64,000 nucleotides of DNA from Thuidium tamariscinum (Eukaryota > Streptophyta > Bryopsida > Hypnales > Thuidiaceae), in NCBI GenBank assembly GCA_947034885.2, contig OX344754.2, forward strand, positions 25,231,369 through 25,295,368, in the 5' to 3' direction. Positions 19,021-60,377 of this stretch are shown one piece after another. Below the pieces are notes generated by a model that was not told the DNA's origin, searched no databases, and was given only the letters and a program-made list of their open reading frames with translations. A program made the position numbers and the translations under genes. Position 1 is the stretch's first letter. Each line of letters opens with the position of its first letter.

Positions 19021-19555
19021 CAGGGTTGTCTATCCCGACGTGACGTGGGCTTTTCCCGTCGGGATGTCATGACGCGGCAGGACGCGTCAGAGGCCGTCCC
19101 GAATGCTGACGGCGTCGTCGACAGCGCGGATGAAGTCCGTCGACATCGCGCAGACGGCCTGTCGGCCGCCTCGACGACTAGCCGTCGCGTGGACGGACAG
19201 AGCGTCCGCGGCTTTAGGGTTTAGGCGCGACGGCCAGGCCGTCGCCTCGACAGTTTTCTGTTCAGCGGACGGTCACGGCGTCCAGAGTCCGTCCACGCAG
19301 CGGGGACGGCCAGAGCGTCCGCGGCTTGTGCACTTCGACGGGACGGCCAGGCCGTCGCCTCGACAGTTTTCCGTTCAGCGGACGGTCACGGCGTCCAGAG
19401 TCCGTCCACGCTGCGGGGACGGCCAGGCCGTCGTCTGGACAGCGGGACGTCCGCTGGACGGCCAGAGCGTCTGCGGGGACGGCCACAACGTCCCGTCCGC
19501 GGCTGTCCACAGTGCGCCAACGGACAGGCCGTCGACTGGACGACTGCTGCCAGGC
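19021..19555. mobile_element. hAT terminus (CAGGGTTG) with GC-rich GACGG/GTCCG subterminal array
   Basis: The TNP2 reading frame stops matching its family exactly at 19021, where CAGGGTTGTC begins. The next 530 bp are packed with GACGG, GTCCG, CCGTC and a repeated word set (GGACGGCCAG, GCGTCCGCGG), with two nearly identical 80-100 bp blocks around 19225-19410. The end resembles the inverted end at 39666-39673 (same CAGGGTTG and CACGTC/GGATGTC words). The 8 bp on the left (GTAGGAGC) would be the target duplication, but its partner was not found. Confidence 0.75.
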
Positions 19556-19563
19556 CTTCACAG

Positions 19564-19570
19564 TATATAG
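19564..19570 (+). promoter_or_regulatory. TATA box of the hAT transposase gene
   Basis: TATATAG lies directly after the GC-rich array and about 220 bp before the transposase ATG. A 5' UTR intron is likely between (donor GCA|GTAAGT near 19699, acceptor TTTGTGCAG near 19757). Confidence 0.5.
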
Positions 19571-19783
19571 CACAAGCCGTGTATTTGAAGGTCACTTTTC
19601 CTTGCTGATCTCTGCTCTTATGACCTGGTTGGCACACAGCCATTGCACTAGAGTGAAGTCCAAGAAGAGTGTGTGGGAGGAACACTTGCTGTGAAAGCAG
19701 TAAGTGTTATTTCCACATCACATCCAAACTGAATACCAACCTGTTTTGTTTGTGCAGTTTCAAGTGAAGAACCAGTGGGAGCA

Positions 19784-22700
19784 ATGGGAGGGGGGAGGAC
19801 ACAATGGAAACCCTGGTACAGGCTACAAGAGGATGGGAAAGTGGAATGCAAGTTCTGCAAAACGAAGATTAGTTACCGCAAGGATCGCTTGCTTTTCCAC
19901 TTGGGTTATAGACGAAATGACACCCTCCCCGGAGTGAGAATGTGCAACAAGGCCAGTGCAGCAGTGAAGGCTATGTTTTTCAATTGTGGGGGGAATGTTC
20001 CTACGGTCTCCGAAGACGAAGAGGAACATGATGTGGAAGTGACATCACCGTCATCGAATCCAACGAGGGTGGTACGTGATCAAGAATTACCCAATGCTTC
20101 AATCTCAATTAGTGGAGGGGGAGGAAATACTTTGGGCCAAAATTCTCAAGTTCGATCATCAGAGGCGCCTGTCCCTTCTTCGACCCATAGTCGACCGCTG
20201 AGGCAATTATCCGTACAAGAAGGGATGGACACATCCAAAAAGCAAGTACTAGACAAGAAGTGGGCAAAGTTTTTCTACGAAGCAAATATCCCATTCAATG
20301 TGGTGAGACACCCCGCTTTTGTGGATGCCGTGAAATCAACCTCCGAGTCCAGAGTTCTTTACAAACCTCCACCTTACAATGCCATACGTACGAAGCTCAT
20401 GACATCAACAAAGGAGGAAGTGGCTGCACTGGTAGCGGAGAAGACAAAGGGGCCTATCCACAAGTACGGTGTCACTATATGTTCTGACGGATGGGACAAT
20501 GTCAACCATCGGCCATTGATCAATGTAATGTTGTCGTGCACGAGTGGAGAAGTATTTTTGGGATCGGTGGACACTACAGGCGAAAGCAAAGACGCTGTTT
20601 ATGTGGCTAATCGCATGATCGATTACATTGACGCGGTGGGGGGATAGAATGTGGTGCAAGTTTGTACGGACAATGCGCCAAACATGCGTTTGGCTGGTAC
20701 TCAAATTACTCGCGAATTCCCTCACCTATATTTCCAAGGTTGTTCCGCGCATGCACTTGACCTTCTACTTGAAGATTGGGGCAAGCAACTTTGGGTGGTC
20801 AAAATGGTGAAGAAAGCAAAATCAATCGTGAAATTCATTCGCACGCATCACATGCCACTCGCCATTTTCCGACGACATTCTCCTAACCTCATGTTGAAGA
20901 ATCCCATTGAGACACGTTTTGCGACCATGTTCCTCATGATCGAGCGTTTGGCCGAGGTCAAGGAAGCCGTGGAATCTACAGTCCATGATCCGCAGTGGAA
21001 CGAATATGTGAGGTCCTCGAACGCTGCAATACACAATAAGGCAGAAAAGGTTCGACGTAGGGTTCGAAAGGACGAGTTCTGGAGGAGGTGTCTCAACTTT
21101 GTGCATATGGTAGAGCCTGTGTTGGTGGCTCTTCGAGAGTTTGATGGAAAACATCCGGTCATGGGCAAAGCATGGATCGTGATGAAGAAGCTAGAAAAGC
21201 ATGTTTTGGCTTTGAGGAATCGACCATTTTCATTGGAGGCAAATTATGCGGACCGTGTTGAATACGCGTTTTACGAACGATGGGATTTGATGAAGACTGA
21301 TTTGCACTACGCAGCTGCCCTGCTCAATCCATTCCTCCTTGATGAAATTATACTAATAGACGATAACGAGGCAAAGGAGGCCATTCTTAGAGTACTACGC
21401 AAATTGGCAGTTGGAGGGTTGGGATATGCAGCCGCTTTGTTTGAGTACCAATCCTTTCGAGACCGCCGAGGCATGTTCGCTGGACTTCCCGATGTGAATA
21501 CTTTGAATTTGGAGCCGCATGAATGGTGGGATCTTCTCGGAGCCGCTGCTCATACGCTTGCACCTATTGCAAGAAGGATCCTCGCACAAGTATGTTCCGC
21601 ATCATCATGCGAACGCAATTGGAGCATGTATTCATTTGTCCACAGCAAGTCTCGCAACAGATTGACATCTGAGCGTGCGGAGGAATTGGTTTACATTTAT
21701 ACCAATTCGAGGACTCTCAGGGAAAGGGGTGCGGCGGATGCAGCACGATGGTACACTGAGAACATGTTGTCCGAAGATTCCATGACAACCGAATCAGATG
21801 GCTTGGATCGTGGTTCGGTTATGTCAGACGCTAACAACGATGACTCAGACGACAATTCCAATGGCGATGATGATCCACCATTTCGGCCTTTGGGTGAAAG
21901 GCAAGAAAGGGGTCCCCTAATTGACGAGTCCGTATTTGACTTTGATGGCGCGGATAATGATGGAAATGACCACGGGGGAGATGAGGATGGAAATGACAAC
22001 GGGGGAAATGATGGCAGTCCGTCATGGATGCCACGTACATCGATTGCGGGGTCAAGTGGTGGAAATCAAAACGAAGGGGTTGAAGCCCCACCTTCGCCGG
22101 TTATAGGGCCGATTGAAGAAGAAATGCGTACCCGGAGACATGAACATGTCGTTGTGGTAGAAAGACAAGGCGAAGATGAGGTCGTTGCCACAGATCCCCG
22201 AGTGGCGCGGAACACTCGTAGCCACAGATCCCCCATTGGTGTCGAGATAGACTTTCGCACATTGCTTCGAGACACGATCGGCGTGCGACCACAAGCGCCT
22301 AGCTTGGATGATCCACCCGTCCAAATTTCAGCACGGCCTTCATCTTCTAGAGTCCGCCCCAACCAAGAAACTCCATCAGTCGGTACACGATTGGCCGGTC
22401 TCTTCCCAACTCTAAATATGACCGAGCGAAGGAATGCACCTCCATCCTCAGAACAACCCGTTGCACCGCCTACACGCACTACTAATCGACGCCCGCGGCC
22501 ACGTGAAGAAAGCCCTACCAATGAACGAGTAAGTAGAAGAACACGTAGAAGGCTAAGAAGGGAAGAAGCGGCGAGTATACCATTTCTCCGCGAAGGTCTT
22601 CTCCCTGGACCGACGGGGCCCAGTGTGGATACCGCTGGAGATGGAGTAGGAGGGCGAACAATCCGCAGATTGGCTTCTATAGTAGGTGAAGGCTCAGACA

Positions 22701-22918
22701 GCCTTGACAACTCACCAAGCGAAGTGGGTAGGGCAACGTCCAATCATGATGATGAATCCATGGGTCCTAGTATAGGTGAAGATGGTGAAGTTCCGGGAGA
22801 TAGTGATTATAGAGGGACTCGTAGAGGTCCTCCACTTGCACCTCAAGACAATCAAGCAACCACGCGAGAGGCTGCTGCAAGGAGCATGGCTCCTAATCGT
22901 ACACGTGCAAGACGTTGA
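19784..22918 (+). pseudogene. hAT-superfamily transposase (BED, DUF659, hAT C-terminal), one TAG
   Basis: A single frame of 1044 sense codons interrupted once by TAG at 20645-20647, between IDAVGG and NVVQVCTDNA. A BED-type zinc finger opens the protein (WYRLQEDGKVECKFC, then FHLGY). The DUF659/RNase H-like core follows, with the expected acidic residues in ICSDGWD and VCTDNAPN and a late glutamate in SSCERNWS. The hAT dimerisation domain is intact (WWDLLGAAAHTLAPIARRIL, ERNWSMYSF, NRLTSERAEELVY). The C-terminal 380 residues are an unusual Asp/Gly/Asn- and then Arg/Pro-rich tail not typical of the family. It would excise and insert elements with CAGGG-type ends and 8-bp duplications. ATG at 19784 was chosen as the first after the predicted acceptor. 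One substitution separates it from an open frame. Confidence 0.88.
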
Positions 22919-23303
22919 GAGCATCTAGGGAAAAAAATGTCTCCATGTCATCTTATGTAATATTGTGTAAGGCTGAATACCTTGCATGTGAAATTCGGCA
23001 TTAATTATAAATACTACACATGCTTCCTGTGCTCATGTAGGGCGCATGGGTAGAAATTTTTTATCTTCACATGTCACAAATTCTACAACGCAACAACGGA
23101 TCCATTTATGGATATTTGTCCCAAGAAATGGAAATATTTGCTTTGTCGTTTGCCATGTGTTCTATACTCTTAAATTTGGATTCATTCTTCGAAACTGGTT
23201 ACCTACATGCTTGGATATTTTGAGATCATTATGAATTTTGCCATGTACAAGAAAACAAATGTAATCTGGAATATGGAGAAAATGATTGAAAGTACTGAAT
23301 TAA
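22919..23303. other. Transposase 3' flank, no gene seen
   Basis: AT-rich sequence following the transposase stop, probably 3' UTR and terminator region. Nothing else is recognisable before the TTAA-flanked MITE at 23304. Confidence 0.5.
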
Positions 23304-24222
23304 CCCCTAAAGGACCAAGAGTCCCCTCGGGGAACTTTAAGAATTAGGGCAAGTACTTGTGACTTCAATTTTTAATGAATTTTATTGAAATTTTCACATA
23401 AGATAAAAAAACTGATTAGCTCCGTGGAAATATTCATTTTTTTTCAATTGGTGACCGGGAGCAAAAGTTATGCCATCATAAACATTATTTTTATGTTGCC
23501 GGGCAGAAAAAAAATCTACAGAAACTTCAAAATTAAAAAAATAATTTTTTTTTCTTATAGATTATATTTTTGTCTACAAGTAAAGCTTTGATTCATTCCA
23601 TTTGGATTAGTAATGTGAAAGTTATGAACAATCTTGTTTTTCGGGCAATCTAAGCATCTTCTTGAAAAAATAACTTCTAGGATTCATTTGTGAATGCAAT
23701 TTCCACAATTTAAAAAAAAAAATTGTTGGACAAGGTTGATTTTGTTTTCTAGAACAATCTCACCATTGGGATTATTGTGTTTCAATTCCATCTATGAGAT
23801 ATTTGCAATTTAGTTTTTCTTTCAATCTTGGACCTACATCTACTTGACAATTTTTTAAAGAATGACAAAAAGTCTTTATTTTGTGAATTTTTTTTCCTAA
23901 GCTCTTAGCTCAATTTCTCAATAAAAAAATTTTAATTCAAGGTCTGTAGTGCAAAAAGATTACATAAATGGAGGACAAAGTCATTTGAAGTTGCAAACTA
24001 GTGTTTAAGAAAACTTTGTTTTCCAACTTTGAATGCTCATATCTTCCTATCTATACAGTCAAACTTCATGAAATTTTCACCACATCATCTTAGTTAAGTA
24101 AAGTTCAAGATCCTATGGTTAGATTCTAAAAATTTAGTTTTTTTGTTTTTCATGGATGAATGGAACAAAAATGGCAGTTTTGAGTGGTTTTGGGTTGAAA
24201 AACGGCCGTGGTCCTTTAGGGG
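23304..24222. mobile_element. piggyBac-like MITE copy A (919 bp, TTAA-flanked)
   Basis: Begins CCCCTAAAGGACC and ends GGTCCTTTAGGGG, both directly flanked by TTAA (23300-23303 and 24223-24226). The interior is AT-rich and non-coding. In reverse orientation its right half matches copy D (57960-58883), including the shared words AGGATCTTG, GTGGTAAAAATTTCATGAA and TTGGAAGATAT. TTAA duplication with CCC-type ends is the piggyBac signature; assignment rests on that and on the multiple copies. Confidence 0.75.
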
Positions 24223-24438
24223 TTAACATGGCATTCAGTCCAAAATTTACGAAGGGACAGAACTACTCACAAATCCACTCACCGGAATCATACTCGAATG
24301 GAACAAAAAGATTTACATATATTTATTTCAAAAAGGAGTTAGTACAAAATTCAGTGACGCAAAGTTCGTGGACTATACTGTGGTAAAAGCAAGTACTAAG
24401 GTACGTCTACGATTACATTGCCACTAAAATACTATTCT

Positions 24439-26100
24439 CTAATCTTCATTCCTTGCTTGTTCTTGTAGAAGTGCTTGCTCCTTGCGGGCCTCGCGGTAGC
24501 AATCAACGGGTGGAGTCCAAAATAAGGGGGCGCCACTAATTCGTCCCACGGCGTACGTTACCGTGCGTCGTTGTAGTGGGTCCTCTTTGCACAATTCGCC
24601 CAATGTGGCTTGAAATGTACCAAACGCTGTATGGTCGGGAAGCATTTCCGTATTTTCGCGGTCTTTCTTCCATATCTTCTCCGCAAGCTTCCCAACAGCA
24701 TATCCGTCTGTATGTATACTAACACACGGTGCCCCATCTGCACGAGTGGGGGATACCGAAGTGCCCGCCTCTCCAGGAACATACATCAATTCAGGGGCCA
24801 CCCACCAACGTTTCTGACGTGTAGCCCGCATTTGGCTTGCACATTGAAACTGGTACAAAGAATGGGTTTCTTCATTGATACGACTAGCCATTCCCCAATC
24901 ACATAGCCCAATCCACACTGTTCGCCCATCATCATTCGGAAAATGCAACATGATGTTTTCTGGCGTGATGTCGTTGTGGAGCACCGAAGATTGTTGCACC
25001 GCATCCACGATGCAAATTAACGCCCATGCAAGCTCGGTGCGGTTTCTACGATAAGCCAAGAGTCTTTTGGCTTCTTGCATCGTCTGTGGAGTTGCATGGT
25101 AGGCAAGCTCCCCGATCTCAGCATAATCTCGGTTTTTTTGGTCCAATGCGAACATGGCTCCCAATGTTCCTCCATTCCACCATTGAGAATAACACTCCAT
25201 GGTCATGTCATTTATAGCAAAAAATTTTATGACCCCTGGATGATTACATGGACAAACCAAAGCCTCGATGGACAACTTCTCCCGCGACTTCTTCAATTGA
25301 TCCACATATAGGGCTGTCTTGCCCGCCAATTCCATCATGGGGGGAATGTGCCTTGAATTTTGGAGGCTCACTTTACGCACCCTCCCGTGCCCCCCTTGTT
25401 TGTTGTGGCCTGACAATGGAACCACCACCACTCCTCGTTCAAGAAATACCACTCCTCCCGCACCCGCTTGGCCTAGGGACAAGCTTTGGCTCTGCTGAAA
25501 CCATGGGGCAGAGCGGATATTGCTGGAAGACAGCGCTCGCATTGCGTCATGCCACCAATACACCTTTTTGTGCAACAAATGCAATGCTTGTTGCTTCGGC
25601 GCTACATCTCGTTTGAAGCCCTTTACCGATGCGGCGACTTGGGCGATGTTGAAAACACAAGTTTGCACTTGTTCGTCAAGCCAACGACGGAAGTGTTCCT
25701 TTGTGCGATCTTCAAGCCACTCATCCTCGCCCATTGTTGTCCAAAACATGTGGGTGAATTTTTTTTTAATTGTCTCCACCCCTTGCAATCCACGCGAGAC
25801 GTAGGTCGTATTCAATTGAGCAATCGTATATTGCTCCAAAAAATCCAATGCCACTTCCTGCACTTTCCTGGTCGCAGCCTTCCTTGGCCAGTCGTCTGTA
25901 TTCGTAGCCTTGTGCCTCCGCCTGCTCTTTTTTTTCTTGGCCCCCGAAGATTCTCCTCCAGCCGCACCACCGACCCCTTCTCCGGCCAATACTGCCTCTG
26001 ATACGCAGTCAATGGATTCTGGAGACTGCTCACCAACAGGATCTCCGATGCCTGAAAACCACTCATCAACCTTGCGCTTCGACGCACCTCGCCCGTCCAT
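24439..26100 (-). CDS. Protein-kinase-like cargo gene I, 553 aa, intact
   Basis: One open exon with two parts. The N-terminal 210 residues are basic then helical (a KKKKSRRRHK stretch followed by an FTHMFWTTMGEDEW region). The C-terminal 300 residues show the protein-kinase order: a Gly-rich segment (KQGGHGRVRKV), a candidate Lys (ELAGKTAL), a helix-C-like Glu (LSIEALV) before NHPGVIKF, a catalytic loop HNDITPENIML (HND in place of HRD; Asp and Asn kept), CDWG in place of DFG, and VAPE. It is convergent with the hAT transposase and its TATA (26302-26296) sits at the edge of the GC-rich array 26290-26900. A paralogue lies at 55960-57462. Substrate unknown. Activity is plausible because the key Asp residues remain. 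Confidence 0.8.
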   Translation of the reverse strand: MDGRGASKRKVDEWFSGIGDPVGEQSPESIDCVSEAVLAGEGVGGAAGGESSGAKKKKSRRRHKATNTDDWPRKAATRKVQEVALDFLEQYTIAQLNTTYVSRGLQGVETIKKKFTHMFWTTMGEDEWLEDRTKEHFRRWLDEQVQTCVFNIAQVAASVKGFKRDVAPKQQALHLLHKKVYWWHDAMRALSSSNIRSAPWFQQSQSLSLGQAGAGGVVFLERGVVVVPLSGHNKQGGHGRVRKVSLQNSRHIPPMMELAGKTALYVDQLKKSREKLSIEALVCPCNHPGVIKFFAINDMTMECYSQWWNGGTLGAMFALDQKNRDYAEIGELAYHATPQTMQEAKRLLAYRRNRTELAWALICIVDAVQQSSVLHNDITPENIMLHFPNDDGRTVWIGLCDWGMASRINEETHSLYQFQCASQMRATRQKRWWVAPELMYVPGEAGTSVSPTRADGAPCVSIHTDGYAVGKLAEKIWKKDRENTEMLPDHTAFGTFQATLGELCKEDPLQRRTVTYAVGRISGAPLFWTPPVDCYREARKEQALLQEQARNED

Positions 26101-26295
26101 TCTGAAAAAAAATATGCGATGGTAAAACCAAGGAATTAGGGTTCAATACTCACAAATGTGAAAACTATCCCCCCTTCCTCAGCCGAGCCTCCTCGCAAGC
26201 ACCCGCGCTCCCAAGCAAGGATTGCAACCAATCCAGGGCAAGAGAGCACCGTCAGAGCAGGAGAGACTCGTGCAGAGTGGGGGACCTGGCCCACC

Positions 26296-26302
26296 TTATA
26301 TA
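26296..26302 (-). promoter_or_regulatory. TATA box of kinase-like gene I
   Basis: Minus-strand TATATAA about 200 bp upstream of the ATG and immediately downstream of the GC-rich array, the same arrangement as at the hAT transposase. Confidence 0.5.
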
Positions 26303-26900
26303 GTCGTTGGCGAGCCGTCGCATGGACGGCCGATCCGTCCAAGGAACTCGAAAGCCGTTGAGGGGTGTCGGGAACTCCGAGACCGTCGAGGGGACGTGCT
26401 GAAGCCGTCGAGGGGAATGTCGAGGACGATGAGGCCGTCGACGGGACGCACCCATCCGTCCCGGGAATTTCGAAGCCGTCGTGGGGACCGTCGAGGAATT
26501 GCGAGACCGTCGAAGGGACGCGCTCGCCGTCCTCAGAATTGGGAAGCCGTCGAGGGGAATGTCGAGGACGATGAGGCCGTCGACGGGACGCACCCATCCG
26601 TCCCGGGAATTTCGAAGCCGTCGTGGGGACCGTCGAGGAATTGCGAGACCGTCGAAGGGACGCGCTCGCCGTCCTCAGAATTGGGAAGCCGTCGAGGGGA
26701 ATGTCGAGGACGATGAGGCCGTCGACGGGACGCACCCATCCGTCCCGGGAATTTCGAAGCCGTCCAGGAAACCGTCGAGGAACTGCGAGACCGTCGACAG
26801 GACGCACAAGCTGTCCTGGGAATTCGGGGGTCCGTCGTGGAACGAGGCCGTCCACGCGACCCCACAGGGCGTCCCGGGAATTCTGAACCATTAAGGGGAT
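26303..26900. repeat. GC-rich CCGTC array with 142-bp tandem repeats
   Basis: CCGTCGA/GACGG words recur every 10-20 bp. Within it a 142-bp unit starts at 26401, 26543 and 26685; the first two copies are virtually identical and the third diverges after about 80 bp. Long ORFs on both strands here are by-products of the repeat. No CAGGG-type hAT end was found on its outer side. Confidence 0.85.
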
Positions 26901-28344
26901 CGTCGGGGAAGCACAGGGCGGTGAAGATGCCAGCGAAGACTTAATGGCAAGCCTCGTGCAACTGAAATTCCTCTACAAGGTAATAAGGTAACAGGCCAGA
27001 AACCGCCCATCTAAGGGCTGACACTGAATTTTGAGAAGGTCAAAAACCCAGCCTAAAGCCCTTGCCCAACCGAAGGTTTTAGGATTTAGGGTTTAGGGTT
27101 TAGGGTTTAGGGTTTAAATTCCTTTTTACTTTTGCGTAAATGAGGGTAAAATGTCTAGTTTAGTAATTTAATAACTTAAGAAGTGCATTATAATTTGTAT
27201 TCGGTAATTGATCTTTATTTTCCTAGCGTCAATCTAATTTTGCAAATTTTGAAGTAATTAAAAGAAATAACATGAAATGATTAAACTTATTGGTTCTAGT
27301 CTAAACACATACCTCTTCGGTTGATGCGTATCCGTTCTCAGTTGTGTCGTCAAAAAGCTCTACTTCCTCCCTTTCCATCTAATTTCATTCTCCCCCGTAA
27401 ATTTAGGAAATAGGAGCTAATTTTAATAATTTAATCCGGCTTAATTAGCATTTGCTATTTGATGGTCACACTATAACTCCTTGAGGAACTTAAATCATTT
27501 CCGTACAATGACTTTGCCTAAATCTAATTCAAGCGTACATACATCTATTTTACAAAATGGGGTCACATAAAATGCCTAATTGAATTCTTCAACCCAATTA
27601 TATTGTTGTAACTTACTAGGAATCTAGGATGTTTTTTGGTATGAAAGATGTGCATATAGATGTTTCCTACATATCTCCTCTTTGCAAATTAATGCTAATT
27701 CATCACCAATGTTTTATAATCAATTATCATGCTAAACCATGAGTTTTGAATGAAACAATTCACCAAATACTGAATTTGACTTATGTGAAATCCACATTTG
27801 GTATGCTTGATTATATTATGCAAAATTTGTTTCAATGGCAGAATTGGATGATCCTAAACTTGTTGGTGGGTAGTGTGTAATGTACATGGCTAAAATTTTA
27901 CATTGCCTTCCAGTGCTTCATCTCATATCGAGAATGGCTGAAGTGATGGACCCTAAATTTTAGAAGTTGCCCTACGGATATGTAGGGATTTAAACTTCTC
28001 AATTTTAAATTCGGGAGCCATCCGACTAGGCATGTATTTTTTAGGAAATTAGATTAGTACTACATGTACATATTAGTATATTACTATATTGCATAATATT
28101 CTGGTCATGTAGTCATGTACTCTACTTATGAGTTATGAAACTATGAGTTATGAAAGTATAAGTGAATGGCGAGCACTAATTAGGAGTTTAGGACGGGGGC
28201 ACTGGCAAGCAAGACTCCGTTAGTGGGCACCAACCAATTTTCAGAATTCAGACTCTTCTGCGGAACCCTAAACCGCTCTAATCCTCTCTTTGCCGAAGTG
28301 TATGATAAACCCTAGAAGAAAGAGTTAGAATTCCGCAAGTGTGT
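26901..28344. other. AT-rich intergenic DNA, no gene seen
   Basis: Nothing coding on either strand. It contains the interstitial telomere-like run listed separately; otherwise unremarkable AT-rich sequence. Confidence 0.5.
27080..27116. repeat. Interstitial TTTAGGG telomere-type repeat
   Basis: About five consecutive TTTAGGG heptads, the plant telomere unit. A more degenerate CCCTAAA run lies near 50450-50480. Short runs like this occur inside plant chromosomes and do not imply a chromosome end. Confidence 0.85.
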
Positions 28345-28752
28345 TAATGGTTTGAACCAAAAATACACGTCAAAGGGTTAAAAAAGTTACCCCAAAAAAA
28401 TATAGAAAGGGTTTGGAAAGAAATTGTCGAGCCCTGTTCGAATAAAAAAAATGTGGAAATGGGTTGGAAAAAAATGTGTTAATGGTTCAATTAAAAAAAA
28501 TAGGGAAAAGGTTTGAATCCCCAAAATGGAAGTGGTGTGAATAAAGCAAAACGTTAATGGTTTCGGGTGTTGGGCAAAAATATATAGAAGGGATTTGGAC
28601 CAAAAAATGGGTTAATGGATCGACTAAAAAAATATGGAAATGATTCGGTTTGGAAAAAAATGTGGAAATGGTTTGAATAAAAAAAATGGGAATGGTTTGA
28701 ATAAAAAAAATGGGAAAGGTTTGAATAAAAAAAATGGGAATGGTTTGAATAA
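28345..28752. repeat. AT-rich minisatellite-like array (short)
   Basis: Repeats of the type TGGTTTGAATAAAAAAAATGG with AATGGTTCGA variants. It is the reverse complement of the larger array at 37770-39010 (CCATTTCCATATTTTTT / AACCATTAACACATTTTTT). Confidence 0.75.
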
Positions 28753-30262
28753 TAGACTTGGGGGTTCACCCCCTTTATCTTTTGGTAACCACGTGCGATA
28801 ATGGGGTATTTAATGGGGGGGTATTTATGTCCTTCTCATGTTTTTTTCCCTCCCTATTAGTAGAATAAAGCTACCGGAGTGTATTTTAGAGTACCCTATT
28901 TTCTTTTGTAAATTCTTTGAAGGACTATTTTTGAACACCCTATTTTTTTTCTACATTTCATAATTACAAAATATTGAGAAGATCAAAAACATTGTATACA
29001 AGGAAACATGTGAGCTTCAAGGATTTTGATGAACTAAGAACATGGTGAAACGCACAGCATATGCTATCTATATGCCACTAAAGAGTTTGAAAATCAAAAA
29101 TCAAAGCTACAACTATTTATATTTCACCATTTATAAGAAAACAAAGCACACAATAGAGAAATTAAACTATAGTATACAATCCTAATTAATGCAATATTTA
29201 AAACCAATTTAAAGGCACAAGAGCATATTCACATTCATTTATATAATAAGGAAAACTTAGGGAATTTAATAAGCCGATTGTGTTTAAAAACACAAGTATC
29301 AGTAAGTCTGCAAATCCATTCTAACATTTAAAATGAAGAAGTTCAAGGACCTCTTGCTCTCAAATCAACTATTATGGTAGGAAGCTCACACGGAGGTTAA
29401 TAAACTATGCAGGCTTTTTTATCTGCTTAATAGGACTATAGGAGGGTCTGATTTCTGAATTGGAAAGCTCATTGTGAGGAAACTAATTGTGGATTATATT
29501 GAAGCATGCTAAGATTTGATTTTTACTATATGAATGGATGGTTTTAGAGTTACAATGGATTCAATCGTAACTAAGTGTACTTATAGGTGTCTACTAATTT
29601 TATTCAAAATAAAAAATGGTTGTTAAACTACCTTCTTTCAAATGTGAAATTGTTTTGAAATAATGATTAATTGAAGAATTCATTTCAGATTTTGAAAGGG
29701 ACACATTTAGAAACCATTTCAAACCATTTTTTACATGTTGCATTACTAGTTTATTCACCAAACCAGATTCTTTTAGAAACTGTGCATGTATAGATTTTCA
29801 AGGCTTACTGATCACAAATAGGGTCCTATGACAAATTGTGTTTGAAAATTAATAATTAATTCAATTTTTCTTCCAAAAAATATGAAACAACTTGTATTAG
29901 ATTCCTCATCTATTTCTCCTTGACTGAAAAATAAACTAAAAATATTTTCATCTAAAGACATAAACGAAAAAGGCAAATCAACTCTTAATTTAAATAAGTG
30001 CAATCTTTGCCTCCTACCATGCATACATGGCTAACACACTTGTCACAATCATGAATCCCAAAAAAATTTAAAAAGAAATACAAGATCTGAATGAGTCACA
30101 CACTTGTCACAACCATGAATGAATCCCAAATTTTTTTAAAAAGAAATGCAAGCTGTGAATGTTAACTCACTGAGCTCCAATAAAAATTACAGTATACAGG
30201 TACTGCATTGGCAATCTTCACCAGTTCACCCACATTAAAATTCTGCTGTCTTACAGCTTATT
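28753..30262. other. AT-rich intergenic DNA with a short duplication
   Basis: No gene seen. An imperfect duplication of about 70 bp lies at 30037-30165 (ACTTGTCACAA..CATGAATCCCAAA..AAAAAGAAAT..CAAG). Otherwise nothing is recognised. Confidence 0.45.
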
Positions 30263-30340
30263 GCATCTCAACTGCCTAAATGAATACCAATTGCGTAATT
30301 GGATCTTGGCTGTCTAATTGGATTCCACCTGCCTAATTGA
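30263..30340. repeat. Short degenerate tandem, TGCCTAATTG type
   Basis: Four imperfect units of about 20 bp of the form CTGCCTAATTGAATTCCA directly precede the GC-rich array at 30357. Confidence 0.6.
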
Positions 30341-30356
30341 AATTCAGTATATATTG

Positions 30357-31150
30357 GGCCCACCTATTGGGCCCGTCTAGGACCTGGGCAGGCCGTCACG
30401 GGGACGGAGAGCGTCCAGAAAACCGTCCAGGAAGACGGGCCCGTCCAGGACCAGGGCAGGCCGTCACGGGGACGGAGGGCGTCCCTAAAACCGTCCAGGA
30501 AGACGGGCCTGTCGAGGACAGCCAGGGAGGACTGACCCCTCTATTGCCCCTTTTTTACCCTTGTAGAAAACCCTGGAATTTCTTTTATTTTTCACACAAA
30601 TTCTTTTTTGCAAATTCTGAATTCTTATTTGGAATCAGAGACCTTGATTTAGCTAGGGGACGTGTTGAAATCTAAAATTTAATCGGCACAAATTAGGGGG
30701 GAATTTTTTACATTTACCCTCCGGAGGGGCAATAGAGGGGTCAGTCCTCCCTGGCCGTCGAGGCCCTGGGCACGCCGTCACGGGGACGGAGGGCGTCCAG
30801 AAAACCGTCCAGCAACACGGGCCCGTTCAGGACCTGGGCAGGCTGTCCGCAACGAATTTGGCTGCGGGCCGGAGCGTCGACCTGTCCGGGCAGGCTGTCC
30901 ACAGCGGAACAGTGGCCGTCCAAGACCACGGGCAGGCCATCACGAAGAGCCATTTTTGGCCATCGAATTTGCAATTCGGCGGAGTAATTATGGATTTTCG
31001 AACTCATGAGTGTTTTCGAACTCGTTGACGGCGCCGGACCTGTGGACGGCCTCTGTGACGTCATCCCGAAGCCGTCGACGGCCTCTCGAACCTCCGTCGA
31101 CGCTCCCTGGACGCCCCAGCCGTCGATGGCCGTCCGCATCAACGGCTCCA
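30357..31150. repeat. GC-rich CCGTC/GTCC array upstream of RING gene II, split by a MITE
   Basis: The words GGGCAGGCCGTCACGGGGACGG and CGTCCAG recur in the part 30357-30518 and again in 30757-31150, interrupted only by the small MITE. It leads directly into the TATA box at 31215. Confidence 0.8.
30519..30756. mobile_element. Small hAT-type MITE (about 235 bp)
   Basis: Inverted termini of 28 bp: CAGGGAGGACTGACCCCTC at the left and its complement at the right (ending 30753), each continuing with GCAATAG. The flanks share GTCGAGG (30511-30517 and 30757-30763), a likely 8-bp duplication with one mismatch. The interior is AT-rich. A diverged sibling is at 52458-52694. Confidence 0.75.
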
Positions 31151-31214
31151 GGTGGTGCATGGCGATGTGATTAGACACAAATTAACACTCCTAACGAGGC
31201 TTGGTAATGGGGAG

Positions 31215-31221
31215 TATAAAT
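31215..31221 (+). promoter_or_regulatory. TATA box of RING gene II
   Basis: TATAAAT just downstream of the GC-rich array and about 205 bp upstream of the first in-frame ATG (31422). A 5' intron ending at the acceptor GTGTGCAG (31416) is likely. Confidence 0.5.
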
Positions 31222-32153
31222 CCCAAATTCAGCCACAATTAACCTTGCTTTCTCTCTTGAGTTGCTCTGTCCTAGCTTGAAAAAAGCTTTGCATTGCAAT
31301 TCGGGAGGAAGTCAAGCATTTGGCTATTGCTTTGCCACATTCCAGTTGCCCTCACGCAACAGGAGGCAGAGCATAGTCATCTGTACATACATACCGTGTT
31401 GTGGCATTGTGTGCAGGTACTATGGCCTTAAACCCTGGAGAGATGGTACTACATGTAGAGAACCCCCCCATGGCAGAGAACCAGGAGGTGGTAATTGCTG
31501 GAAATCACCCCCCAGTGGTAGAAAACCAGGAGATGGTAACCCATGAAGGTGAACCCCCACACAGGAGGCGTCGTGGGAACAGGAGCACTGTAGACTGGGC
31601 GACTTTCAACACTGGAGAAGTTTTGGCCGGGCACGGGTGGGAACAGGCGCTTGAGCCATGGACCCGCACCACATGTCAGAGATACGTGGACTGGGCCCAC
31701 ATCAACCGCCATTTTCCACGGGAGAGAAATGAGACGCAAGTGCGATCTGGCGTTGCATTGATCAAGTATTGCGTACACCCAACGTTCAAGAAGCGGTTGA
31801 CCGAGGTGGCATTGGCACTTTGGGGGACCCTGTGGCAAGACATATTTTTGATCTTTCCATTTAAAGTCAGTATGGAGCGGAAAGTGGAAAATTTAGCAAC
31901 CGGATTTGTTCAGGGAATGGGTAAGATCCAGAAGTAGTACCAGATAATGTTGTAGAGACCGGTGGCAGAATAATTCCGGTTTATTACGACGGAATACCGG
32001 AACGGAAAAATTCCGGACCCTACAGAACGGATTCTATCCGGATTCAGTCCCAGAACGGAACGGATGATTTCCGGACTTGGACCGATCGGATGAGAACGGG
32101 AACGGATGATCAGGAACGGAAGACCGGATCCATTTCTGGAAACTATATAAGGC

Positions 32154-32161
32154 CTGACATT
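32154..32161 (+). promoter_or_regulatory. TATA box inside LTR-like copy 3
   Basis: TATATAAG within a block conserved between copies 3 and 4 (GGAAACTATATAAGGCC), 320 bp from the element start and 340 bp before its ORF. This is where an LTR U3 promoter would sit. Confidence 0.6.
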
Positions 32162-41093: not shown

Positions 41094-41101
41094 TATATAA
41101 G
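41094..41101 (+). promoter_or_regulatory. TATA box inside LTR-like copy 4
   Basis: TATATAAG in the same position and context as in copy 3. Confidence 0.6.
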
Positions 41102-48500: not shown

Positions 48501-48671
48501 GGAGGTCTAATAATCTGCGGTCTCATTTTCCCAACCGCTCTCTGCTATGATGTTCGGATCGTCCAAAATTTCATAGTGTAGTCCATGTGTAGTCCCCTTC
48601 ACTTTATTTCGCTTTTTCTGGTCACCTCCTGAATTCATCCCATCAGTACCTGCACCGCTGTCTGTAGCCAT
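45531..48671 (-). pseudogene. RING-H2 coiled-coil gene III, two in-frame stops
   Basis: A single frame of 1047 codons from ATG at 48671 to the stop at 45531, interrupted by TAG (48507-48509) and TGA (48372-48374). The N-terminal 140 residues match genes II and IV (SGWENE, TSKLCKQYV, YHINKLWP, FVH, RKVDW). Both stops fall at positions where the paralogues suggest Trp (VWTATTC) and Arg (HRYDE), each one transition away. After a polar linker come long coiled coils (around 400-560). RING-H2 follows near 46480-46620 with CTIC..C-G-H-x2-H-x2-C..CAEC, then a region with NMGGHWSVQ. The tail is basic/acidic with KREKKRKLEDD. A ubiquitin-ligase role is likely by family. Promoter at the GC array 48900-49160. 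Confidence 0.75.
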
Positions 48672-48910
48672 GATAGAGAATCCAAATTTACAAGCCCTTG
48701 GAAACCTTCAATTTTGTGAACCGGAGGGTATGAAACGTGTCTTCGTAATACAATCGGTCAAAGCTTCGACGTGAAAAAGTAATGACCCCTTCTCTCCGCC
48801 AAGTAGGAGCAACTAGCACTACGCACTCACACGTGGCAATAAGCAGCACATCCGACTTGGGTCACTTCGTGAGGAGAGAAGAAGTGAAGGAAAATGAAGG
48901 GGCCGTCCGA
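48672..48910. other. 5' flank of RING gene III
   Basis: Leader region between the TATA at 48911-48918 and the ATG at 48671. No other feature seen. Confidence 0.4.
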
Positions 48911-48918
48911 CCATATAC
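48911..48918 (-). promoter_or_regulatory. TATA box of RING gene III
   Basis: Minus-strand GTATATGG at the inner edge of the GC-rich array, about 240 bp upstream of the ATG. Confidence 0.45.
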
Positions 48919-49160
48919 CCGTCCGCCGCCAGACCTAGACAGGTCCGGCACCGGACCAGCGGACGGCCAATGCGGACCGTCACCGGATGGCGCGTCCGCC
49001 CGTCCGGCGAACGCTGGGCGGTCGGCCGCCCCGCCGACCATGCGGACATGCGATGGGCGTCCGCTGTGCCGACCGCCCAGCGTCCGCCCTTCGGACCTTC
49101 CCGTCCGCCTTGACGACCGACTGGGCGTCCGACAAAGGCGTCCGCCTTGCCGATCACTCA
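48919..49160. repeat. GC-rich GTCCG array upstream of RING gene III
   Basis: CGTCCG, GGACCG and GGCGTCCG words repeat throughout. No CAGGG-type end is seen on the outer side; from 49160 the sequence becomes AT-rich. Confidence 0.75.
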
Positions 49161-52708: not shown

Positions 52709-53100
52709 CTTTGAGGGTTTCAAACCCCCCGCCCCTCCGTCCGCTCTTCCGTCGGTGCCCCGTCCGCCGCTCTTTGCCCTCGTCCGCCCGTCGGTGCCCC
52801 GTTCGCCCGTCGGTGCCCCCGTCTGCCTGTCCGCCCGTCCGCCCGTCGGTCCGTCCGTTCTGCATCCGCCCCCGACGGGCGCCGTCCGCGTCGTCCGTCC
52901 CTCGGTGAGTCCGCCCGATGTCCGTGCGATCCAACGGACGCCGATTTCGGTCCGCTGGATTGTGCCGTCCGCCTCTCGGCCGTCGGATGAGCATCTGGCC
53001 GTCCGCCTCGGTGGGGGGCGGACGGCTCAGCATAAGAAGCGGGGCGGACGGCTCATTTTGCCACAACCGTTTGTTTCCCTCCGGAGTGGACGATCCAGTG
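52709..53100. repeat. GC-rich CGTCCG array upstream of gene IV
   Basis: CCGTCGGTGCCCCG-type and CGTCCGCC words in tandem (about 52745-52880), then looser GTCCG/GGACGG to 53100. ORFs on both strands are by-products of composition. Confidence 0.8.
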
Positions 53101-53335: not shown

Positions 53336-54412
53336 ATGCCTCGTGATGAAAACAAGAGAAACAAGGGGAAATCCCAAAGCATAAATTGGGATGATTGGAA
53401 TGATCCAATGTGTGTTGGTGAACCCGGATGGGAGAGTGAACCAAAGAAAGTTTGGACCGCCACTACGTGCAAGAAGTACGTGAAAATGACGCACATTGCC
53501 AAATTGTGGACATCGGACCGTGCAGCGCAACAAGTTCGCCGTTGGGAAGGGCAAACATCCACGTGTCTCAGTAGGCACTTTGTTCACCGATACGATGAAG
53601 TGACGTGTAATGCTGGTATACGTGACTCCAAACCAAATGTCATGAATTATACGAACATGGCCATAGTCTGGGCAGAGATTGTACTTCACAAAGATGTTGA
53701 TTGGCGCACAATATATAGAAAAGATGTGGCGACTCTCAATTGCAACGAAGTAGTCATTTATACGAGCTGGACTAATGCAAGCGATTGCATGCCCAAATGG
53801 TCCAATCGAGGGCAATTTGGATTTCCTGCAACAGTGATGCCGGATGCAGACGAGCCCGTCCCAGATGATGATGATGATGATATTGAAGAGGCTACTGCAC
53901 CCGTGGCCGGTGGAGAGAGGCATGAACGTAGAGAAGCTTGAGAGGACATTCAATACGAGCATGAAATGCGTGAGGCAATGCGGAGAAGCATAGAAGATCG
54001 TGGTCCACAATATGGTTACGATGGGTACTATGGACGTGAACGTGGTACACATGACCCACGAGGTGGACAAAGTCGTTCTCAAATCCTAGGAGGAAGCTCC
54101 GGAACCGCGCACAATGCTCCTTCTACCCAAGAAGGCTCCCAATACCATTCGAGGTCTAGTGGAGGTGGTTCATATGGAAATTATGGGCATCATGGAGGGT
54201 CTTACCATGGCCGTTCAAATGAAGGAGGCTCCTACTATGGAGATTCAGTTCCTCCTCCAACCTTTGGAGGGCCTCATTACGGGAACTATGGACAAAGAGG
54301 AGCGGGAAGCGGAGCAGGAGACATGTACGGTGGAGGACCATATATGGGGGTGTATGGATCTAGTTCTGTAGGCCATAGTCAGAGAGATGATACCGACTCA
54401 GATTCCGAGTGA
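53336..54412 (+). pseudogene. Gene IV: shared N-terminal module plus Gly/Tyr-rich tail, one TGA
   Basis: A frame of 358 codons from ATG 53336, with one TGA at 53939-53941 between RREA and EDIQYEHEM. The N-terminal 125 residues are the module of RING genes II and III: GEPGWESE, VWTATTCKKYVKMTHIAKLW, RHFVHRYDE, KPNVMNY, WAEIVLHKDVDW. An Asp-rich run and a charged helix follow, then 120 residues of low-complexity Gly/Tyr/Ser/His repeats ending DTDSDSE. There is no RING. Such tails often drive condensate formation or RNA binding, but that is inference. It may be a shortened relative or a separate partner of the RING proteins. Confidence 0.65.
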
Positions 54413-55560: not shown

Positions 55561-55770
55561 ACCGTTGGATTAGGCGGACGGCACCCGCCCGATCATGGTC
55601 GTCCGTCGGATTGATCGGACGGCGGACTTCCCGTCCGCCCGATCGGACGGGCGGACGGACTGATGCCGTCCGACGAGGCGGACGCATATCTGTCCGCCCG
55701 TCCGCGGCCGCCCGATCGCGCGGACAGCGCCTCGTCGGGTCGTCCGCACAGGTGAGGGCGTTCGCCAGGG
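55561..55770. repeat. GC-rich GGACGG/GTCCG array upstream of kinase-like gene V
   Basis: Dense GCGGACGG, CGTCCGCCCG and GATCGGACGG words. It begins abruptly inside the third 175-bp repeat, which looks like an insertion edge, but no CAGGG end is visible there. Confidence 0.8.
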
Positions 55771-55778
55771 TATAAGAG
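55771..55778 (+). promoter_or_regulatory. TATA box of kinase-like gene V
   Basis: TATAAGAG at the downstream edge of the GC-rich array, about 190 bp before the ATG. Confidence 0.5.
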
Positions 55779-55959: not shown

Positions 55960-57462
55960 ATGATGGGACGAACAAAGAAGGCAGGTAAAAGGAAACTGGA
56001 GGAGGTGGCAGGTCCATCTAAAGAGGAGGTAAAAGCAAACAAGCCCTCTGAAGCATTGAATAATATGCTGATTAAAGTGATCGTGGACTTCTACAAATCG
56101 GAGAGCACGATGTCCTTGCAAATGAAGTATGTTTGCTACAATGAGGACTGTCCTAAAAAATTCAAGGACGACATGTGGTGACGGCTTATGGATGCGGTTT
56201 CTGTTCCACAATGGCACAGTGAGATGGATAAGACTGGCTTTGAGCCGTTTTTGAAAAATAAGGTGCATGACGCGTTGTGGAATGCGAAGGACATCTTAAC
56301 GAAGTATGGGAAGCATCACCGTGAACATGATGCTGCATTTCAGCAAGTCATTCTAAGGGCTGAATTGTTTGTCGACCGATGTGCTCCATTTGCGTCTGCC
56401 AGGAACAGACGAGGATCTATGGGTTGGTGGAAAACCAATGATGGAATGGTTGAATTGACGGAAGGCAGGAAGCATCTAATAGCACTTCCAGACACGGCGA
56501 CCGTGATTAATTGTGATGATGTCGTGACCAAAGGCGGGTACGCAACAATTCGGAGGGTGCAAATTCGGGGATGCCGTGAAATACCTGAGTATTGGGAGTT
56601 TGCAGCAAAGCTATCTAATGTACAGCAGACGCTACCTCATCTTGCGAAGGCGGAACACCAAAACGAGTCCATGGCAGTGCGGATTGGCCATCCCGGAGTG
56701 ATACGGTTTCATGCAATTCATGCAAGGAGGAATGAAGGATATGCATATTGGTGGAATGGCGGGACCTTGCGGAAGATGATGCATTTGGATAGAACTTATC
56801 CAGACAACATACGTATGCACTTGCAATATAGCTCGCCAACGGATGCGGATGTCATTGCCGCAGATCATCTTGCACGATTTCGGAAGAAACGTACGGAACT
56901 AGCATGGGCGTTGTTGCATATCATGCATGCGGTGCACGATGTAGGATATTTGCACAATGATATCTCACTGGACAACATTATGTTGCACTTCCCCGCGGAC
57001 GAGTCGCGCGTGTACATTGGAGTGTGCGATTGGGGCATGACTTCGTACGTTACAGAACCACCGAAGTCATTGTACGTGTTCACATCCAAAGAAGAGATGG
57101 ATGCTACTTTGCAAAACCGTTGGTGGGTGACCCCGAAGATTGCATATTTGCACGAAAAAGACAAAAATGTGCAAGTAATTCCAAGTTTATCCATTGCAAC
57201 GGAGGAGTATGCAGTGTGCAAAATAGCCATGGCAATTAACAGGGATTGCATGTTTGAGGAGTACCACAAGTTGAACATGGAAACGCCAAGCATGAGCAAA
57301 TTTGATCACCAAGCCTTGGCAATTTCATTTCGTGCGTACTTGGAGCGCCCTTGCAAAGACGGCCCGGAGAATGCAGGCGGTTTGGCACGCATCATCAATC
57401 GTTGGACCAGTACTTTCAACTGGCCTATTCCCAATGAACACTTTCGGCGTTCGTATGAATAG
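55960..57462 (+). pseudogene. Protein-kinase-like cargo gene V, one TGA
   Basis: A frame of 500 codons from ATG 55960 with one TGA (56179-56181, after KDDMW). It is a paralogue of the gene at 24439-26100. The basic N-terminus (GRTKKAGKRK) and the helical region are shared. In the kinase part are GGYATIRRV, a candidate Lys in WEFAAKL, Glu in ESMAVRI before GHPGVIRF, YLHNDISLDNIML (HND loop; Asp and Asn kept) and CDWG. The APE position reads TPK, unlike APE in gene I. It sits behind the same type of GC-rich array plus TATA. The nonsense codon could be read as damage of CGA or TGG. Confidence 0.75.
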
Positions 57463-57959
57463 ATCGGCATAGTATAGTAGCATACGTAAGTATAGAATGA
57501 TATGTAGTCTATGTTATAGAGAGAATGTACACGTGCGGCATATATAATACGTAGTATATATACGGAGCACCAATGTATGGCAACCCAAATGAAATCTATT
57601 ATATTTTTTGAATTACTGAAAGCATTTGAAAATTCCAGCTATTAATGTTTATGATCTTTGATACTTGATAGGCAAACGTATTCATGGGGGGGGAATGAGA
57701 TCAATAGTATTTATTTTTGGTAGATGTTGTTGTGCACATAGATACTTGATAAGGTTGTGTAACAATTTGCATGATGTATAAGGTCTAAGTAGTAAGTAAG
57801 GTAGAAGTACCTATTAGCGTCCTCACTTGCAATCTGAGTATGTTAGGGTGAACTTCAAGAGAGTTTTATATTTTTCAGAGGTGTACAAACGTTTCACAAA
57901 TGAAATTCAAATGACAAAATTCTTTTTGCGGAGCTCTGAGAAATTTATGGCAATTTTAA
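57463..57959. other. 3' flank of kinase-like gene V
   Basis: AT-rich, no gene seen. Confidence 0.45.
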
Positions 57960-58883
57960 CCCCTAAGTTCCCAAGGCATTTTCTGGCTTTGAAACCACTG
58001 AAAACTGCCATTTCTGCTGCAATCACTCAAGAAACCTAAAAGAACTTTTTCCTTACAATCTAACCGTAGGATCTTGTAATTCACTTGTCTCAAATCATGT
58101 GGTAAAAATTTCATGAAGTTTGACCGTACGGATTGGAAGATATTAGCATTTGAAGTTGAAAAAGAAAGTTTTTTTCAACTGCGGCCTGCAATTTCAGGTG
58201 ACTTTGATGGCCATTTGTGGATTTTCTTTGCACTACACACCATAAGGTTAAAATTTTTTATCTTGAACATTTGAGTTGAGAGTTGTAGAAAAAAATTTCA
58301 GAATGTCAAAACTTCATTTGCACATATAAAAAAATTGTTAAGTAGAAGTAGGTCCAAAGTTGAACAAAATACTAAATTGTTAATAGCCTTTAGATGGAAT
58401 AAAAAAAATCATAATCCCAATGGTGGGATTTTTCTTGAAAACAAATTTAACCTTTTCAAAAAAAAAAATTGAAAAAAATTGAAAATTGCATTCAAAAATG
58501 AATTCTATAAGTTGTTTTTTGAAGAAGATGCTTAAATTGCCCGAAAAACAAGATTGTCCATCACTTTTTCATTATTAGTCCAAATAGGATGAATCAAAGC
58601 TTCAAATGTAGACAAAAACATAATCTTTCAGAAAAAAAAATTGAAAAAAAAAAAAATTCATTTTTTTGTGTTTTTTTTTTCTGCCCGCCGAACTACTTTT
58701 TTGACTTAAGATGGCAAAACTTCTGCTCCCGAGCACCGACTGAAAAAAAAATTATATTTTTAGAAAGCTGATGTGATTTTCTATCTTCAAAAAAAGTTTC
58801 AAAAAATTATGTCAAAATTTCAGGTCACACGAGCCTGCCCGAAATCCCAAGTGTCCCCCGAGGGGACTTTGGGCATTTAGGGG
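57960..58883. mobile_element. piggyBac-like MITE copy D (924 bp, TTAA-flanked)
   Basis: Begins CCCCTAAGTTCCCAAGG and ends GGGCATTTAGGGG, flanked by TTAA (57956-57959 and 58884-58887). The interior matches copy A in opposite orientation. A further start of the same kind (TTAACCCCAAAAGGAC, 58936) suggests an adjoining, decayed fifth copy. Confidence 0.75.
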
Positions 58884-60089
58884 TTAAATAAAATCATGAC
58901 ATGGACAGATCATGATTCAAAATTCGAAAATGCCATTAACCCCAAAAGGACTGGTGCCCGAAATGCACTTCAAAATACTAAAAACTTGTCCCAAAAGGAA
59001 TGTCAAAAATCAAAATCTTCATGATTAAATTTTTTTTAAGAAAACCAACTTGTTGATCTTTTTGTTAACTTGTTCAAGTAATAGGGTACATTGTTCCAAA
59101 ATTTTATTGTGAATTTCCCCACCAATTAATATTTGCAACTAAAAAGATGACTAAAATTTCGCTCAAAATCATTTGAATTTCCTCATAGTGATATAAAATT
59201 CATAGTTTCAAGTAATAAAAATATAAGATTGATGTTTGAACAAAATAAGATATGCTTATTTTAGCTTAAGGATGATATTTGACCAAATGGAATAGAAACT
59301 ATGAATTTTATCGATATAAAATTTATATTTTGGTTTCAATTGATTTTGTGCCGATTTTTAATTGAAACAAAAATAACCAAATCAATTGAAACAAAAATTT
59401 GATTGAAACAATAGTTGATTATCAATTGAACCAAAAATGGAAGCAATTGATTTTGAGAAAAATTCTAATCGTTATCATTTTTTTACAAAATTAAAAATAA
59501 ATATAGGAAAACTAGCAGAAAAAATCCGAAATACTTTCAATTTCTTCCAAAGGTACAAGTATAAATGGAGATCACTATATATAATTCTCAATTTGCCTTT
59601 AAAAAATTTTGAACCAAAAACTACAATAACAAAGACCTCAAAGTCAAATTTGGCTATTAAAGAAAATTAAATTTTTGATTTTATACATTATCAAGAAAAA
59701 TTCTATTGTAAAATTCTACTTTCTACATATTCTATTTTTCTACAAATTGCTTGATGAAAACTACATATTATTGTAATAATTTTAAAGTAAAAAGTTAAGA
59801 AAATTATATCAATTATACTATATATTGGAATAGTTTGAAATTTTGAATGTTAAATGGAAAACTGAATATTGCAATTGAAATTAAGGATTGATCTTAAAAC
59901 GAATAAATATGAATGAAAAAGACAATGTATTGTGTTTGACGGATTTCAACACATAGAACTTGCAATTGCAATAAATTTTTCAATTCTTGGAATTTTTCAA
60001 AATTTTAAGTTCAAATAAAAAGAAAAGTTTTCAAGCTTCATTTTCTTATTTTAAGTTAAATACCAAAATGGCTATATTGAAAGTTAGAA
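58884..60089. other. Very AT-rich spacer with a 15-bp inverted repeat
   Basis: No gene. AAAATTCATAGTTTC (59195-59209) is complemented by GAAACTATGAATTTT (59295-59309), a possible small MITE of about 115 bp. AATTGAAACAAAAAT-like words repeat near 59330-59440. A decayed piggyBac-like MITE may begin at 58940. Confidence 0.45.
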
Positions 60090-60377
60090 TCACGGACGCG
60101 TGGCAGACGCGGTCGGTCGGAGCGGACGGGATTGCTTTCGTAGCGAACGCCGGCGGTCGGGGCGGACGGGCGGTCGGACGGGACCTCCAACGCCGCGGTC
60201 GGGGCGGACGGGAGGTCGGACGGGACCTCCGACGCCGGTTGCCGGGGCGGCCGTCCGCCTCTATATTTTATCGGGCGCACTAAATTCGGAAATTCAAATG
60301 TCACAGGACGTCCGCGGGGTGCCGGATGCTGGATGTCCGGACGCAGACGCCGACGCCCGGACGTCCACACAGCCCTG
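60090..60377. mobile_element. hAT terminus (inverted CAGCCCTG) with GC-rich array
   Basis: GGTCGGGGCGGACGGG and GGTCGGACGGGACCTCC repeats lead to ACGTCCACACAGCCCTG at 60377. The next base starts a sequence (CTCTGGACTTGGGCTGG...) that matches 62811 onward, where no insertion is present. So the element end is fixed by comparison with an unoccupied copy of the target. Likely 8-bp target: CTCTGGAC. Confidence 0.75.

Follow-up and report, generated by a model that had tools for sequence, protein, structure and literature searches.

hAT elements are usually portrayed as transposons with a single gene, the known ones being a few kilobases (kb) long. Ac-type hATs have subterminal repeats. In this study, a stretch of 64,000 nucleotides from Thuidium tamariscinum (contig OX344754.2, positions 25,231,369 to 25,295,368; hereafter the window) was analysed, in which a hAT element (element 1) encloses a transposase gene (hAT1), a protein kinase gene (kin1) and a RING-H2 gene (ring1), and is followed by what is read as a second element (element 2). 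Like the plant hATs (Ac/Ds, Tam3 and DUF659-type elements), element 1 has DUF659 and dimerisation domains, CAGGG ends, 8-base-pair (bp) target duplications and subterminal word clusters. Unlike them, it measures about 17 kb and includes kinase and RING genes, both of which have a word array and a TATA-like box of their own.

The VANDAL elements of Arabidopsis, which are Mutator-like elements (MULEs), have several genes, VANC anti-silencing proteins, and subfamily-specific tandem word arrays in the non-coding parts beside the genes, as stated in excerpts of PMC5735166. The present elements are likewise multi-gene elements with word arrays beside the genes and with word sets that differ between subfamilies (two dialects in one window). 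They differ from VANDAL in that the transposase is of the hAT and not of the MULE type, the GC-rich words occupy the termini as well, and kinase and RING proteins are new as partners. A Pfam scan of the element genes detected hAT domains and no MULE domain, and recognised no VANC-like protein, Pfam being the sole search for VANC. MuDR and other MULEs carry additional open reading frames (ORFs) besides the transposase (excerpts of PMC6446971). Element 1 is also a DNA transposon with extra ORFs, although it belongs to another superfamily and has other accessory proteins. Pack-TYPE transposons, including Pack-hAT, are non-autonomous and hold gene fragments, according to parts of PMC8903248. Here too, hAT ends enclose non-transposase genes; unlike in Pack-TYPE elements, nine copies keep hAT sequence (as judged from samples), and the copies of the kinase and RING genes have their full length. 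The literature searched, most subscription papers being outside its reach, yielded no description of a hAT that has both a kinase and a RING gene. Such a hAT appears to be unreported; accessory genes in MULEs and gene capture by Pack-TYPE elements are already known.

Borders and copies of element 1

The first-pass annotation of the window had suggested that hAT transposons carry kinase and RING genes as cargo. The check it named was to list the genes enclosed by paired ends that have 8-bp duplications, and to see whether the kinase and RING families are multi-copy and internal to the element. I ran this check for element 1 in the host genome (363 Mb; eleven large contigs of 17-54 Mb). The features of the window copy are as follows (LTR, long terminal repeat).

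19021..39673, plus strand: element 1, a hAT element (20,653 bp in the window copy; 16.8-17.1 kb in nine other copies)
19784..22918, plus strand: hAT1 transposase, with DUF659 and the hAT dimerisation domain; in-frame stop TAG at 20645-20647
24439..26100, minus strand: kin1 protein kinase, 553 amino acids, open frame in the window copy
31422..31830, plus strand: N-terminal part of ring1, broken off by an LTR-like insert
31831..35453, no strand: LTR-retrotransposon-like insert in ring1, with TG...CA ends, a 5-bp duplication (GACCC) and a gag-like ORF inside
35459..37413, plus strand: C-terminal part of ring1 with the RING-H2 region (68 scored copies)

It was found that both gene families are multi-copy. 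The best 78 of 634 first-look candidates for kin1 and the best 68 of 755 candidates for the ring1 part were scored, the window's own included, and all match at 98-100% identity (amino-acid identity over the full length for kin1). Thus, the genome has at least 78 kin1 and at least 68 ring1 copies of this kind, and kin1 copies are present on all eleven large contigs. Among the matches listed, a divergent RING copy lies within 60 kb of 59 of the 78 kinase copies, and at 5.26-5.75 kb for 56 of the 78. The pair in the window is 9.36 kb apart, as its spacing is widened by the 3.6-kb insert in ring1.

The ends were assessed in 12 other copies chosen among the kinase-RING pairs with regular spacing. 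Both ends were recovered in nine of them, and in the other three only one end was found within the stretch examined. The ends at 19021 and 39673 were found again at the termini of the nine copies, and the alignment of copy C6 to the window breaks off exactly at 39673. The termini are CAGGGTTG on the left and CAACCCTG on the right, one of the nine copies having CAACCCTA as its right end; short CAGGG-type terminal inverted repeats are present, as in hATs. All nine copies with both ends recovered (12 tried) are flanked by a perfect 8-bp target duplication, namely GGCCTAAT, AAGCAAAG, ATGAAATG, TCGGGGCA, GCAGTCGC, TTCACAAG, GCACAAAT, ATGCTGAC and GTTGCGTT. The target preference of hATs is nTnnnnAn. 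The nine duplications fit it in part, with T at position 2 in four and A at position 7 in five of the nine. Samples of 120-350 bp each revealed hAT sequence at the expected place in all nine copies (3 + 6). The transposase, the kinase and the RING gene therefore lie between the same two ends and were inserted jointly, with an 8-bp duplication, at nine checked sites, which bears out the proposed hAT with kinase and RING cargo. It was also considered whether the nine copies are segmental duplications with shared flanks, a view disfavoured by their nine different target duplications.

The window's own copy is different in its flanks. The ends at 19021 and 39673, the second of which the first-pass annotation had named as the inverse of the first, have no matching 8-mers in their flanks (GTAGGAGC and CCACTAGC). 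In the window and the 60 kb around it, no 8-bp partner was found for either end. Thus, the window copy is rearranged. Its left end sits in a CACTA ORF, and its right end breaks the gene of a second hAT transposase (hAT2). Recombination between two copies would explain the unmatched flanks, and an assembly fault is another possible source.

Element 2 and the word arrays

At about 40.5-60.4 kb, to the right of element 1, lie a hAT2 remnant, a RING gene, a Gly/Tyr-rich gene and a kinase gene, together with arrays of a second dialect. This part is referred to as element 2 and has the following features.

39674..40484, minus strand: hAT2 transposase remnant, ATG side at 40484, truncated by the right end of element 1
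40001..40361, no strand: hAT miniature inverted-repeat transposable element in the hAT2 remnant, 361 bp, with a perfect 8-bp duplication GCCTTCGT
40772..44396, no strand: second copy of the LTR-like insert, 5-bp duplication GCAAC
45531..48671, minus strand: ring2, which encodes a RING-H2 protein and has two in-frame stops close to the N-terminus
53336..54412, plus strand: Gly/Tyr-rich gene, N-terminal domain common with ring1 and ring2, one in-frame stop
55960..57462, plus strand: kin2, a kinase with about 30% identity to kin1 and a single in-frame stop in the window
60370..60377, minus strand: right end of element 2, CAGCCCTG, flank CTCTGGAC

The right end at 60377 adjoins repeat DNA whose alignment resumes at 62810. 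Two other kin2 copies were checked, and in both, an array, then CAGCCCTG or CAACCCTG, and then DNA unlike the window were found 3′ of kin2. Thus, this end is not private to the window copy. All three hAT ends named in the first-pass annotation are real junctions, 19021 and 39673 in nine copies and the 60377 type in two of two. The left end of element 2 and a target duplication were not found.

The window contains 370 instances of the words GACGG, CCGTC, GTCCG and CGGAC, compared with a mean of 172 over 30 dinucleotide shuffles. Its richest 150-bp stretch has 21 words, compared with at most 7 in the shuffles. Twelve clusters were reduced to nine arrays; the cluster at 40936-41027 was dropped, being inside a transposon insert, and three pieces at 30373-31137 were merged. 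GACGGCC occurs 36 times within the array pieces, where 2.5 are expected, and is present in nine of the ten pieces. The arrays have no strand.

19056..19534: A1, dialect I, left subterminal and upstream of hAT1
26249..26853: A2, dialect I, upstream of kin1
30373..31137: A3, dialect I, upstream of ring1 and divided at about 30517-30759 by a small inverted-repeat insert
39184..39663: A4, dialect I, gene-less, right subterminal array of element 1
44418..44534: A5, dialect II, likely the upstream array of hAT2
48903..49145: A6, dialect II, upstream of ring2
52737..53052: A7, dialect II, upstream of the Gly/Tyr-rich gene
55575..55747: A8, dialect II, upstream of kin2
60093..60363: A9, dialect II, gene-less, right subterminal array of element 2

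Six genes had been reported to start behind such arrays. All six do; the count is, however, seven, since the hAT2 remnant (40484-39674, minus strand) had been missed. In hAT1, kin1, ring1, ring2, the Gly/Tyr-rich gene, kin2 and the hAT2 remnant, the ATG is about 150-285 bp from the array edge, the edge for hAT2 being a small fragment that remains at 40745; A5 is separated from hAT2 by the second LTR-like insert. A TATA-like box at or near the array edge was seen by eye for hAT1, kin1, ring1, ring2 and kin2, the five genes for which it had been described. Only weak look-alikes were seen for the Gly/Tyr-rich gene (CATAAGAA), for which none had been reported, and for hAT2 (ACAATAA). The gene-less arrays A4 and A9 lie directly inside the hAT ends 39673 and 60377, and A1 of hAT1 also adjoins the end at 19021. 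In the window's element 1, a single kind of GGACGGCC-word array is present at both ends and at the genes.

The word profiles divide A1-A4 (dialect I) from A5-A9 (dialect II). Among the 126 possible splits into four and five arrays, this one ranks first for word lengths of 5, 6 and 7 and second for a length of 4. The split statistic is 0.134 versus at most 0.039 in 200 shuffles that preserve the dinucleotides of each array. When the arrays were cut to 115 bp, the split ranked first in 100 of 100 trials, and in all 60 trials at either of two word lengths in a second run; when they were cut to 80 bp, it held in 58/60 and 56/60. Trees of the arrays were also examined and count in favour of the split. 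Among the arrays, A1-A4 contain AGGCCGTC, which A5 also has once; GGCGGACG is confined to A5-A9. The dialects were derived from the arrays of this one window.

The split coincides with the end at 39673. Thus, the locus is read as two elements that have separate codes; hAT1, kin1 and ring1 are assigned to element 1, and the hAT2 remnant, ring2, the Gly/Tyr-rich gene and kin2 to element 2. For element 2, two properties, dialect and position, suggest that these four genes belong to one unit. Could 19021-60377 be a single giant composite element instead? Strong arrays are confined to 19.0-60.4 kb in the window and the 60 kb around it, and the outer ends are at 19021 and 60377, as such an element would have them. 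The idea is nevertheless scarcely credible, since element 1 terminates at 39673 in nine other copies of about 17 kb, the dialects and the end letters differ on either side of 39673, and 19021 and 60377 have unmatched flanks. Under the two-element reading, the hAT, kinase and RING gene kinds occur in both dialect groups despite the kinases being only about 30% identical. Element 2 appears to have the same plan in a different dialect, which suggests that the arrangement of three gene kinds is old and has been kept.

Encoded proteins and neighbouring features

In hAT1, the DUF659 and Dimer_Tnp_hAT domains are above the curated Pfam cut-off, and the BED match is below it; in the BED region, 32 residues of the hAT2 remnant are 44% identical to hAT1. 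The Pkinase score is 35.5 for kin1 and 25.9, below the cut-off of 31.7 bits, for kin2. Both kinases keep the kinase lysine, HND...N and DWG. Since these motifs are kept at about 30% identity, kin1 and kin2 are probably active enzymes, as far as sequence can predict. A search of PDB sequences with kin1 alone, or with the second hAT ORF alone, gave no match, and a profile of the two kinases gave weak matches to kinases (best E 0.003). No relatives were found in viral contigs in scans of those contigs.

The search of the genome with kin2 (best 98 of 647 candidates scored, giving 101 matches) revealed at least 71 matches at 83-100% identity, some of them partial and the window's own included, and five more fragments at 93-97%. 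A further 25 matches are 59-60% identical to kin2 with a nearly uniform score, and 24 of these are stop-free (for example, G000:C7:28454907-28456193). They may represent a third, possibly the youngest, kinase family.

The RING score is 28.9 for ring2 and 27.0, just under the cut-off of 27.3 bits, for ring1. The two proteins share the RING-H2 region with its zinc ligands and the stretch after it. They are predicted to be RING-H2 proteins of the ubiquitin-ligase type. The N-terminal domain common to ring1, ring2 and the Gly/Tyr-rich protein has no Pfam family. Its model (predicted local distance difference test, pLDDT, 59) gave no fold match with E < 0.001, and it is weakly similar to the gag-like ORF found in the LTR-like insert (probability 5%, E 0.007). 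ORFs related to this gag-like ORF were found at 2921-4837 and, by eye, in a background stretch of the genome (L026). No internal LTR pair was seen in either LTR-like insert (31831-35453 and 40772-44396).

A kinase 3′ module (23300-24232 versus 57950-58887, 74% identical) was considered as a common part of the elements and rejected, as it proved to be an independent inverted-repeat element with TTAACCCCTAAAGG ends. This element of about 0.9 kb, which I take to be piggyBac-like from its TTAA borders, has four copies at 23300-24232, 57950-58887, 49331-49983 and 50974-51398, the two at 49.3-51.4 kb being partial. Short runs of the plant-type telomere repeat TTTAGGG lie between element genes at 27074-27116 and 50446-50482 and are possibly scars of break repair. 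A near-perfect inverted repeat (98.9-100%) spans 61788-64000 with its centre at about 62.9 kb and extends to the window edge; it is either a fold-back element or an assembly palindrome. About 8.7 kb to the right of the end of element 2, a fragment (L013:5125-5592) is 41% identical to hAT1 residues 525-678, which span the dimerisation region. A block is duplicated with 97-98% identity (1531-3428 and 12309-14206; 5262-5523 and 14203-14464), the second copy being without the middle part. CACTA domains were also detected in the window.

Proposed role of the kinase and RING genes

As a whole, the results are best explained, with high confidence, by an autonomous-type hAT of about 17 kb with a transposase, a kinase and a RING-H2 gene, whose genes would form a private regulon and whose two additional proteins would have accessory roles. 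Several points weigh against this explanation. Among the matches listed, 19 of 78 kinase and 9 of 68 RING copies are without a partner, and true solo kinase copies are possible among the former. The 12 copies of the end test were taken from regularly spaced pairs and not at random. A selection test speaks for the explanation: in four kin1 copies, 18 silent and 24 replacement changes were counted (ratio of replacement to silent change, pN/pS, 0.38), where random placement of the same changes gave a mean of 30 replacements (P ~0.03). This test is, however, of four copies only, and the three fetched ones were chosen stop-free, which biases it. The structure prediction of kin1 had a pLDDT of 33 and was discarded. 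Finally, an array was found outside the elements. Seventeen 10-kb stretches at round-number positions were taken as a background sample; three have a cluster of at least 6 words, and only L026 has one of at least 10, the two others having 7. In L026, which has no hAT, kinase or RING match in its 10 kb, a 41-word array (5721-6454, two clusters) is situated about 240 bp upstream of a repeated, gag-like ORF that is on the minus strand and unrelated to hAT genes. Thus, the arrays are not exclusive to hAT genes, and several transposon families of this genome may have this promoter style in common.

The array in L026 is what supports regarding the arrays as an ordinary promoter type of repeated genes in this genome, not specific to the elements. 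I consider this rather unlikely, given that a cluster of at least 10 words occurs in one sampled stretch of 17, that the 60 kb around the window have a single weak cluster of 6 words, that gene-less arrays lie directly at the element ends, and that the dialects track element identity. Stops occur in 27 of the 78 kinase copies listed, the other 51 being stop-free, and the window's ring1, ring2, kin2 and Gly/Tyr-rich genes are broken. This would fit a passenger capture, in which host kinase and RING genes were taken up once by a hAT in the Pack-TYPE style and play no role in transposition; plant DNA transposons including hATs capture gene fragments, as described in parts of PMC8903248. Passenger capture is unlikely here, since the kinase and RING genes are long, each with its own array and TATA-like box, and occur in both diverged element types, and since the catalytic kinase motifs persist in spite of the divergence. 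Moreover, 60 of the 68 RING copies listed are stop-free (the open frame is 701-836 amino acids in the 67 copies besides the window's), and the pN/pS of kin1, from the four copies chosen as above, points the same way.

For the autonomous-type hAT, the following mechanism is proposed. Judging from hAT biology, the hAT protein would act on the ends and the subterminal words in cut-and-paste transposition, and the terminal arrays would be its subterminal binding sites. Since arrays precede every gene, the three genes may be under the common control of one DNA-binding protein made by the element, the BED finger of the hAT protein or another product, and would thus form a private regulon. Such control would resemble the action of VANC on VANDAL elements. 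The kinase and the RING protein may have accessory functions that aid the persistence of the element, which is the least certain step. Most likely, they would modify or degrade a host silencing or repair factor, or tune the activity of the transposase.

In a wider and more tentative proposal, to which I give somewhat less than an even chance, this hAT lineage is a multi-gene selfish system of a transposase, a kinase and a RING ligase, with the Gly/Tyr-rich protein in one branch, and with a private word code and an element-made reader. The code and the reader would co-diverge, the kinase and the ligase would act on host silencing or repair, and at least three kinase families (kin1, kin2, and the 25 copies 59-60% identical to kin2) would be its branches.

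Since the transposase moves together with the kinase and RING genes in tens of young copies, genes of signalling and protein degradation would be standard equipment of a selfish element. The element offers a direct test of the way in which a transposon profits from such proteins in the face of its host, and the two dialects may serve as a second test system, beside VANDAL and VANC, for the co-evolution of regulatory words and their reader. In annotations of the host, these kinases and RING proteins may be taken for expansions of host gene families.

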